A DNA stretch of 64,000 nucleotides from Rhizobiaceae bacterium. Its GTDB lineage: Bacteria; Pseudomonadota; Alphaproteobacteria; Rhizobiales; Rhizobiaceae. The stretch spans positions 3,507,501-3,571,500 of the forward strand of contig JAMLJB010000001.1 of NCBI GenBank assembly GCA_023953835.1, read 5' to 3'. Both the position numbers and the translations under genes were made by a program. Below the pieces are notes generated by a model. That model searched no databases and was not told the origin of the DNA. It worked only from the letters and a program-made list of their open reading frames with translations. Shown here piece after piece: positions 42,272-50,929 of the stretch; position 1 is the first letter of the stretch; each line of letters opens with the position of its first letter.

Positions 42272-42437
42272 TTTGGGCCGCATACCATGCTGCCAAGCAT
42301 GAGTCAGTATGGTTGTGCCCATGCCCTCGCAATAGGATCAAATTCCTTGCGGGCGGTCATATGTTCCCGTATTGTTCCTTTTCAGATTTGAGGCCGGTCC
42401 TCAAACGAACATCCCGAAATCAGGAGCAAGAATTGCG

Positions 42438-43226
42438 ATGCACGCGATACGCACCCACAGTTCCGTTGCGCACATCGGCATGTCTTCGGAACTGCCTGCG
42501 GTGAAGCGCAGGTTGACCACCGTACTTTGCGCGGATGCATGCGGCTATGCAGGTCAGATGCAGGTCGACGAAACCGGCACGCTGGAACGGCTGCGCCGCT
42601 ACAGGTCGATCATGGGCGAATGCTTCTCACACCATGAGGGGCGCATGGTGAATACCTGGGGCGATGCGATCATCGCAGAGTTCGCATCGGTGGTAGAGGC
42701 TGTGCGTTGCGCCGTCGAGATTCAGACTGCCATCGGCGCGGAGAACGCCGACCTCTCGCCTCAGCGGCGGATGCATTTTCGCATCGGCATCAATCTCGGC
42801 GACGTGATCGAGGACGGCAACGACATCTACGGCGAGGGAGTGAACGCAGCGGCCCGCCTCGAATCGCTTGCTCAACCCGGCGGCATCATGGTTTCGGACA
42901 CGGTCTACGCACTGACGCACAAGCAACTGCCCCTCGCGTTCGATTTTGCCGGATCGCGTCAGGTCAAAGGACGGGAAGCGCCGGTAGCGGGGTATCGAGT
43001 GCGATTGACGGATGCCCGCGTCGCTTCACACACCGTCAATGCGTCTGCCCACAGCGGGCGTGCCGGGTTGATCCGGTGCCGGTCGAGCCTGCTTCTGCCT
43101 GCGGCAGCGGTCGGGCTTTTGCTCTGCATCAATCTGTTTGCCGGGATTAGGGAGCTCTGGGTCATTTACCCGGCGGTACCCATATTGGCGCTAGCAGTGG
43201 TTCGATTTCTGCGTTGCCGAAAATAA
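42438..43226 (+). CDS. class III nucleotidyl cyclase with C-terminal membrane anchor
   Basis: 262 residues from ATG 42438 (CAGGAG eleven bases upstream); ATG 42480 is an alternative. The catalytic domain carries both metal Asp residues, D33 (CADACGY) and D76 (NTWGDAIIAEF), and the IYGEGVNAAARLESL motif. The residue that usually is Lys and selects adenine (KT-GD) is Asn72 here, so ATP specificity is uncertain. Two transmembrane helices at the C-terminus (LLLPAAAVGLLLCINLF; VIYPAVPILALAVV) anchor it, the reverse of most membrane cyclases. Confidence 0.85.
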   Translation: MHAIRTHSSVAHIGMSSELPAVKRRLTTVLCADACGYAGQMQVDETGTLERLRRYRSIMGECFSHHEGRMVNTWGDAIIAEFASVVEAVRCAVEIQTAIGAENADLSPQRRMHFRIGINLGDVIEDGNDIYGEGVNAAARLESLAQPGGIMVSDTVYALTHKQLPLAFDFAGSRQVKGREAPVAGYRVRLTDARVASHTVNASAHSGRAGLIRCRSSLLLPAAAVGLLLCINLFAGIRELWVIYPAVPILALAVVRFLRCRK

Positions 43227-46298: not shown

Positions 46299-46628
46299 TT
46301 ATTTTACCTTGGCGAGCGCGCCCTCGAACGGCTTGTAAGCGTCCTTGGCGAGATCGGCATAAAGGCCGCTGAGCTTGGTGGCCTCCGCGACGAGCGCCTC
46401 ATAGGAAGTCTTCGCATAGGACGTCTGGATTTCGACGGCCTTTTCGAACGATTTCGCCGAAAGCATCCCCTGGAAAGCCGACGCACCATCTTCCAGAGTC
46501 TTTTTCGTGTACTCGCCCGTTTCGACGGCGATGGCCTGCGCGCCCTTGGAGAAAGCCGCAAACGCCTTCAAGCCGTTGTCCAGCGTGTCTTTGGCGAATG
46601 CATTGAGGTCCTCAAAATTCTTGCTCAT
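46299..46628 (-). CDS. phasin family protein
   Basis: 109 residues from ATG 46628. Phasins coat polyhydroxybutyrate granules and control their number and size. The sequence is almost wholly amphipathic helix: FEDLNAFAKDTLDNGLKAF, QAIAVETGEYTKKTLEDGASAFQGML in parts, AKSFEKAVEIQTSYAKTSYEAL in parts, ending FEGALAKVK. This fits Phasin_2-type proteins. Its promoter contains a palindromic operator placed between -35 and -10, consistent with repression by a PHB-sensing regulator of the PhaR/AniA type. The synthase genes are not in the window. Confidence 0.93.
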   Translation of the reverse strand: MSKNFEDLNAFAKDTLDNGLKAFAAFSKGAQAIAVETGEYTKKTLEDGASAFQGMLSAKSFEKAVEIQTSYAKTSYEALVAEATKLSGLYADLAKDAYKPFEGALAKVK

Positions 46629-46650
46629 AACGCAACCTTTCGCATTTCCA

Positions 46651-46694
46651 TTGTGCAATGCGATAAATATTGTGCACTGCACAAAAAATGTCAA
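46651..46694 (-). promoter_or_regulatory. phasin promoter with palindromic operator
   Basis: Minus strand: TTGACA at 46689-46694, 17-base spacer, AATATT at 46666-46671. The spacer holds the perfect palindrome TTGTGCA-C-TGCACAA (46670-46684). A degenerate second copy, TTGTGCAATGCGATA, lies at 46651-46665, 19 bases on. This architecture suits a repressor such as PhaR, whose sites are TGC/GCA-rich; that assignment is inferred. Confidence 0.65.
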
Positions 46695-49007: not shown

Positions 49008-50408
49008 TCAACATTCGACAACGTTGACCGCCAGTCCACCCTGACTTGTTTCCTTGTACTTTTCACTCATGTCGAGCCCCGTCTGGCGCATCGTCTCAAT
49101 CGCCGCATCCAGTGGCACGAAATGCGTTCCGTCACCCTTGATGGCAAGCGAGGCGGCCGTCACCGCCTTGACCGCGCCCAGCGCATTGCGCTCGATGCAC
49201 GGCACCTGCACCAGTCCGCCGACGGGATCGCAGGTCATGCCGAGATGGTGCTCCAGCGCGATCTCGGCAGCGTTTTCCACCTGCTCCGGCGTGCCACCCA
49301 TCACCGCGCACAAGCCGGCGGCGGCCATTGCCGAAGCAGACCCCACCTCTCCCTGGCACCCGACCTCCGCGCCCGAAATCGAAGCATTGGTCTTGATGAT
49401 CCCGCCGATTGCGGCCGAGGCAAGCAGGAAATCGCGAATGCTCGACTGGTCCGCCTCGGGGTGGAAATGCAGCCAGTAGCGCAGCACCGACGGAACGACA
49501 CCCGCCGCGCCGTTCGTGGGCGCCGTGACGACGCGCCCACCCGCGGCGTTCTCCTCATTCACCGCCATCGCGTAGATCGAAAGCCAATCATTGGCGAGCA
49601 GCGGATTCGGCCTGTTGCGCTGCCAGTCGTCCTGGAGCTTGTCGTGGAGCTGGCGCGCACGGCGGCGAACCTTCAGCCCGCCCGGCATGATGCCATCCTT
49701 TGTCAGGCCGCGTTCGATGCACCCCTTCATCGCCAACCAGATGGCGTCGAGCCCCTCATCCAGTTCGTCACGCGTCACGAATACCTCCTCGTTGGCGCGT
49801 TTCATTTCGGCAATTGAAAGGCCGCTCTTCGCCGCCATGGAGAGCATCTCCTTCGCAGATGCAAAGGGATACGGCACCTTGCGGGATGGCTTTTCCGGCC
49901 CTCGTGCTTTCATGCGCTGCAATTCCTCGTCTGAAACGACGAACCCTCCGCCAATCGAGTAATAGACCCGCTTGAGCAACAGCCGCTCGTCGGCATCGTA
50001 GGCGTAGAACTGCATGCCGTTGGCATGGCCCGGCAGCGGCGTTTTCTTGTCCAGGACGAGGTCCTTGGCCGGATCGAATCGATAGGTCGGATGTCCCTGC
50101 GGCGTGACGCGCTTTTCGCGCGAGATGCGCTCGATGATCTCGTCCGCCGTGTCGGGGTCCACAGTCGTCGGCGTCAGTCCTGCCAATCCAAGCACCACGG
50201 CGCGGTCGGTTCCGTGCCCGATGCCTGTGAAGGCCAGCGAGCCGTGCAGGCTCGCGCCAAGCGAGGCGATCTCGACACCGCGCGGACGCGGCCATTCTCC
50301 GTTCAATATTTCATCGAGGAATCGCGCACCCGCAGTCATCGGTCCCATCGTGTGGGAACTCGATGGACCAATACCGATTTTATAAAGATCGAAAACCGAG
50401 AGAAACAA
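49008..50408 (-). CDS. sdaA: L-serine ammonia-lyase (iron-sulfur)
   Basis: 466 residues, the single-chain type. It deaminates serine to pyruvate with a 4Fe-4S cluster. The beta domain starts [23 protein letters not shown] in parts, with the substrate-binding PSSSHTMGP. The alpha domain has [20 protein letters not shown] in parts, then [18 protein letters not shown] with two cluster cysteines, and a C-terminal Cys (NVVEC) used as the tail ligand. All are intact. There is no regulatory ACT domain. Confidence 0.97.
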
Positions 50409-50515
50409 GTCGCATCCTCATGGCAATTGCCATGCTGATCTAGCGCGTCCTCACAGACAAATCCATTTCAACCGCCGACGAACGCTGGCGCGCCCGCGAC
50501 GTGCGGGCCTGCCTC

Positions 50516-50650
50516 TCAGCCCGCAGTGGCCAGCACTGCGCCCGTGTGGGCGCCTCCGCCGACCAGCCATGTCAGCAGCAGCAAGGCGGCAATGACGACA
50601 AGGCACTTCGCGGTCAAACCCCAACAGGATTGGCTGTTTTCTTGATCCAT
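50516..50650 (-). CDS. unannotated 44-residue membrane peptide candidate
   Basis: ATG at 50650, TGA at 50516-50518, 44 residues: a polar N-terminus (MDQENSQSCWGLTAKC) followed by one hydrophobic helix (LVVIAALLLLTWLVGGG) and a short AHTGAVLATAG tail, a clear single-pass or signal-anchor profile. A GTG at 50668 would add six residues (MTAARK). Neither start has a good Shine-Dalgarno sequence. Its upstream region holds an operator core shared with the phasin promoter (50697-50713). It lies between sdaA and gatA on the same strand. The rest of the 50409-50929 gap shows no other gene. Confidence 0.45.
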   Translation of the reverse strand: MDQENSQSCWGLTAKCLVVIAALLLLTWLVGGGAHTGAVLATAG

Positions 50651-50696
50651 TTTGCGGGCAGCGGTCACTTGGTTGACGGAGCGTTAACGGGGCAGA

Positions 50697-50713
50697 TTTT
50701 GCACTGCACATAA
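50697..50713 (-). promoter_or_regulatory. phasin-type operator upstream of the 44-residue peptide gene
   Basis: TTTTGCACTGCACATAA contains the 11-base core TGCACTGCACA, identical to the centre of the phasin promoter palindrome at 46670-46684. Its centre is 54 bases upstream of the peptide ATG; in the phasin gene the distance is 49. The similarity is visible directly; a shared regulator is inferred. Confidence 0.45.
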
Positions 50714-50929
50714 AACGAAAAATGCGGCGTGACAAGCCCGAAATAAGGCATATTCGTGACGGGCATCTGAGGAAATTGCCTGCTACAACTTCGCAAATAT
50801 CTTCCGAATCAACATGTTATGTCTATATATTGCAGTTTACGCTTCGTAAGCGCATTGGGCGAAAGTATGGCGGCGCACCCGTCTCCCGAGTGCAGCCGGA
50901 TAAACAATTGAAGCTTTGTCGCGTGGCGC

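Follow-up and report, generated by a model that had tools for sequence, protein, structure and literature searches.

A conserved small membrane protein gene of the Rhizobiaceae with a predicted PhaR operator at its promoter in one genus

The 64,000-nucleotide stretch of Rhizobiaceae DNA analysed here (the window) contains, upstream of the L-serine deaminase gene sdaA, a 44-codon frame that, judged by its conservation in relatives, is a genuine and previously unannotated protein-coding gene. We consider it probable, taking the parts together, that it is an old gene of the family encoding a conserved small membrane protein, that a PhaR operator was added to its promoter within the genus, and that the task of the protein is not specific to PHB. 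The gene (MDQENSQSCWGLTAKCLVVIAALLLLTWLVGGGAHTGAVLATAG, 50516..50650, minus strand) starts with ATG, and its product has a polar head followed by a 19-residue stretch with a mean hydropathy of 2.39, the single-helix layout that a preliminary description had reported for the frame from 50650 to 50516 and that is present exactly as claimed. A GTG in the same frame at 50668 is a less likely start, because all orthologues align at the Met encoded by the ATG. The absence of a Shine-Dalgarno (SD) sequence had also been remarked on, which is correct for the species of the window; an SD-like 4-mer occurs in 35 of 80 named orthologue loci. The peptide matches no Pfam family, and against NCBIfam it gives sub-threshold matches only (YoaK, 17.3 bits versus a cut-off of 32). 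On the same strand, gatA is the neighbour upstream, and the next gene downstream is sdaA (49008..50408, minus strand, TTG start), which is followed by a DUF1489 gene. We predict a single-pass inner-membrane protein whose head is probably cytoplasmic, with translation and membrane insertion both part of the prediction.

A search with the single sequence covered the window's own genome and 60 relatives and found the peptide in 23 of these 61; a profile built from the 23 sequences found orthologues in 172 of 248 family genomes and 81 of 109 genera, as a rule in one copy per genome. The profile found no match in about 30% of the family genomes, and among 289 genomes drawn from the class it matched one other genome only, and weakly. 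A scan of named genomes located the peptide in records of Mesorhizobium, Aminobacter, Nitratireductor, Chelativorans, Ensifer, Hoeflea, Pseudovibrio and Stappia. The alignment shows no variation at M1, S8, C9, and W10, the last three forming an SCW motif, and the start Met is aligned in 23/23 rows. The C-terminal tail is dispensable: short forms of ∼33 residues stop after the helix and consist of just the head and the membrane helix. The mean pN/pS is 0.37 over 2485 pairs, codon position 2 is the least variable and position 3 the most variable, and within the genus of the window dN is 0.08-0.17 versus a dS of 0.59-0.97. The preliminary description had proposed looking for the frame in relatives, and there it is kept under purifying selection. 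In S. meliloti Ak57, an unannotated orthologue lies upstream of the L-serine ammonia-lyase gene, with an SD-like sequence and its own terminator. The S. meliloti orthologue at L158:6001-6102 has 33 residues.

In 76 of 80 loci, sdaA follows, and an intrinsic terminator lies 3′ of the peptide stop in 64 of 82 non-redundant orthologues, versus 9.2 expected from shuffled sequences. Upstream of the orthologues we find a family promoter of the form TTGC[GA]-N17-TA, with the T present in 41 of 66 and the A in 51 of 66; TTGC served as the anchor, so that only the TA counts as independent evidence. We read TTGC[GA] and TA as the putative −35 and −10 elements of the peptide core promoter. Loci in which no adjoining sdaA was found (L018, L022, L024, L107, L112, and L114) still have the peptide and its terminator. 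Because the gene has its own promoter and terminator and is kept where no sdaA was found next door, we take it to be normally a unit of its own rather than a leader of sdaA; the co-occurrence of the two genes is itself uninformative, since SdaA is encoded in 240 of 248 genomes. In relatives, the peptide would then be made from its own transcript of roughly 250 nt, comprising the core promoter, the ORF, and the terminator, just upstream of sdaA. An element upstream of most orthologues, TTTTTGCANTTGCGAA, was at first taken for a diverged PhaR palindrome, a reading that was dropped because its usual spacing is 4, against 3 in all phasin operators found in this family; given that a TA sits 17 nt behind TTGC[GA], the −35 of the core promoter is the better reading.

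In the window itself, the promoter region carries a near-palindrome, AGATTTTGCACTGCACATAAA, at 50694..50714, which resembles a PhaR operator and is centred 54 bases from the ATG. It was scored with a matrix built from 25 phasin-promoter sites of other genera, with the window's own genus left out, and applied to the 64-kb window and to individual further stretches only. The phasin operator in the window scores 31.4 bits, the peptide site 23.45, and the next best position 12.6, so that the phasin and peptide sites are the only two above 13 bits. The probability of the peptide site by chance is ∼6e-9 (at 60% GC) to 3e-8 (at 50% GC) per position, and the site is an exact match to the S. meliloti PhaR consensus WNWDDNYGCRNYGCRNHHWNW. 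The preliminary description had drawn attention to TTTTGCACTGCACATAA at 50697-50713, stating that its core is the same as the centre of the phasin palindrome (46670-46684) and that the two lie at nearly the same distance from their starts; both statements hold, with centre-to-start distances of 54 bases for the peptide and 49 for phasin. It had also called for a genome search for such sites: TTGTGCANTGCACAA, with at most two mismatches, occurs 24 times versus 3 for the reversed control. The S. meliloti IUPAC pattern, found 36 times genome-wide versus 30 in the control, is too loose to count sites. The third-best position in the window (43204-43224, 12.6 bits) is probably no operator, because it falls within an adenylate-cyclase-like ORF (42372-43226), at its 3′ end; this ORF is convergent to clpA.

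By eye, the peptide promoter has a likely −35, TTGTCA (50730..50735, minus strand), 17 nt from a likely −10, TATGTG (50707..50712, minus strand), which falls inside the operator; the distance matches the 17-nt spacing of the family, and in the two congeners the corresponding −35 place is taken by TTGCCA and TTGCAA. The −10 is weak (3/6 to TATAAT), and a consensus promoter scan did not report the two hexamers. As the operator overlies this plausible −10 (TTGTCA-N17-TATGTG), bound PhaR would block the peptide promoter.

The reference member of the PhaR regulon is the phasin gene (Phasin_2, Pfam E 2.6e-22; 46299..46628, minus strand), whose operator, ATATTGTGCACTGCACAAAAA (46667..46687), lies between TTGACA (46694-46689) and AATATT (46671-46666); a weaker second operator, CCATTGTGCAATGCGATAAAT, is found at 46648..46668 (11.4 bits). 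A palindrome with three-base spacing (N3) is present in 22 of 23 phasin promoters of the family and order, and the phasin promoters of the group (upstream regions L135-L157) often have two PhaR-like sites ∼20-30 bases apart. PhaR itself is encoded in the genome (PF07879, 102.9 bits), next to a phaA-like thiolase gene, and a PhaR-like site lies in the phaR/phaA intergenic region. The genome also encodes two PhaC and a second phasin, which has an operator of its own. The PhaR site published for Bradyrhizobium is TGCRNYGCASMA (PMC6201568), and that for S. meliloti is WNWDDNYGCRNYGCRNHHWNW (PMC12542648). The sites described here share with the PhaR (AniA) regulons of S. meliloti (PMC12542648) and B. 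diazoefficiens (PMC6201568) the pattern YGCRNYGCR, AT-rich arms, and the 3-base spacing between GC pairs, and in both published regulons phasin is a prime target and the operators overlap or lie near −35/−10 elements, as here. Further PhaR-like sites lie at G000:C1:610177 (L033), 2873182 (L029), 3496058 (L044), 2025106 (L039), 3230265 (L042), 1476385 (L035), and 1749812 (L037). Their neighbourhoods are those of the second phasin, a gene of the creatinase/Xaa-Pro aminopeptidase type, an Rrf2 regulator, the phaR/phaA intergenic region, a pyridine-nucleotide oxidoreductase, rimP, and ftsK; the set may be regarded as a candidate PhaR regulon.

The operator does not reach far in the family. One congener has it at the same position with 20.0 bits, and in the other it has decayed to 8.75 bits. 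Only 5 of 75 non-redundant orthologue promoters exceed 12 bits, the genus of the window included, and three of these lie outside the genus; other family members, S. meliloti included, have a plain promoter at the operator's place. Selection for the operator is thinly shown, because it is a genus-level feature already decayed in one of three congeners. Unlike the window, S. meliloti has an orthologue promoter that lacks a PhaR site, in a species in which PhaR targets have been mapped, and the peptide is absent from the target list in the main text of that study (PMC12542648). Within the genus of the window, the best reading is that the peptide likely belongs to the PhaR (storage-polymer) regulon, with PhaR binding predicted. 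The operator would have arisen in the genus over the −10 region of the peptide promoter. When there is little PHB, PhaR would be expected to block RNA polymerase at this promoter, and PHB granules would titrate PhaR away and release it, as at the phasin gene; at the peptide promoter, we infer both the binding of PhaR and the direction of control.

An alternative that we rate as possible, at less than an even chance, is that the main target of the operator is sdaA: the two genes would share one message, PhaR would couple serine-to-pyruvate flux to the PHB pool, and the peptide would be a passenger or partner. No intrinsic terminator was found between peptide and sdaA in any of the three congeners (50408-50516 in the window; L006 and L007), where the gap is 110, 106, and 116 nt, even though 64 of 82 orthologues have one, and the gap contains no good promoter for sdaA. 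With the terminator lost in this genus, sdaA may therefore be under PhaR too, and many central carbon genes around pyruvate are among the PhaR targets published for S. meliloti (PMC12542648). Against this, the message could still be terminated by Rho or by hairpins that lack T-runs, and the PhaR targets listed in the main text of that S. meliloti study do not include sdaA (PMC12542648). A version in which PhaR has been wired onto a rearranged peptide-sdaA unit, with the terminator lost, the operator over the −10, and both genes under the PHB pool, is tentative and, we think, rather doubtful.

It is improbable that the operator match is a coincidence and that PhaR does not touch the peptide promoter. 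The degenerate IUPAC consensus is indeed nearly as frequent as its control, and the operator is not conserved outside the genus, but the chance probability per position (∼6e-9 to 3e-8), the lack of any third site above 13 bits in 64 kb, and the same position in a congener all argue for a real site.

A dedicated protein of the PHB cycle, or a granule-linked membrane protein, is very improbable, although the strong PhaR-type operator in the genus and the phasin gene that lies close by, both in the window and in several relatives, would fit such a role. PhaR is encoded in 219 of 248 family genomes. Among the PhaR-less genomes examined, 14, in six genera, have a peptide match, and PhaC is found in none of them; leaving aside one broken copy, 13 genomes in six genera have an intact peptide without PhaR and PHB synthase. 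It follows that the protein is not bound to PHB. Three of the 13 are reduced genomes of 1.5-1.6 Mb in which the peptide still precedes sdaA. The broken copy, in the remaining one of the 14 genomes (G103, locus L168, around position 1500, minus strand), has a stop codon inside the SCW motif, which suggests that it is decaying. The operator is also missing from nearly all other orthologues, Pfam finds no phasin domain in the peptide, and the short forms of 33 residues offer nothing beyond the head and the membrane helix. Of the preliminary proposal that the peptide belongs to the same storage-polymer regulon as phasin and could be a membrane or granule-linked protein, the regulatory half stands as the best reading within the genus, by virtue of the predicted PhaR-type operator, and the granule or PHB half is unlikely in view of the 13 genomes lacking PhaR and PhaC. 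Because the operator is essentially limited to the genus and the peptide is kept without PhaR and PhaC, we favour a small membrane protein of old standing that came under PhaR only recently.

Least likely of all is that the ORF is only the leader peptide of an attenuator controlling sdaA, for although it is short and in most relatives precedes a metabolic gene, with a terminator ∼50 nt beyond the ORF, it shows purifying selection at the amino acid level and a conserved membrane helix, persists with a terminator in the six loci named above in which no adjoining sdaA was found, and has neither a run of serine codons nor an Rfam match.

As for the role of the protein, the most likely kind is that of a small subunit, accessory or regulatory, that serves a housekeeping membrane protein. 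CydX, KdpF, and AcrZ are small single-helix accessory proteins of 30-50 residues with a polar head and one helix, and the peptide resembles them in size, polar head, and single helix. It differs from them in that it has no partner gene in an operon, is largely confined to one family, and carries the SCW motif. Novel small proteins found by Ribo-seq in S. meliloti include the membrane proteins SEP16 and SEP6, conserved in Hyphomicrobiales (PMC10117765); these share with the peptide the organism group, the size class, and the predicted membrane location. A search of the literature for small membrane proteins encoded next to serine dehydratase in Rhizobiales gave no result.

These findings describe a conserved small membrane protein that has no Pfam or NCBIfam family and has gone largely unnoticed, and at least one record of S. 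meliloti leaves it unannotated. Its sharp SCW motif and ready-made transcription unit make it testable in rhizobia. The predicted operator is a clear example of how a promoter enters the PhaR regulon inside a single genus, in which the congeners stand at different stages of gain or loss. If the coupling to sdaA is real, a storage-polymer regulator would recently have captured a housekeeping small-protein gene and would control both a family-wide small membrane protein and the flux from serine to pyruvate.
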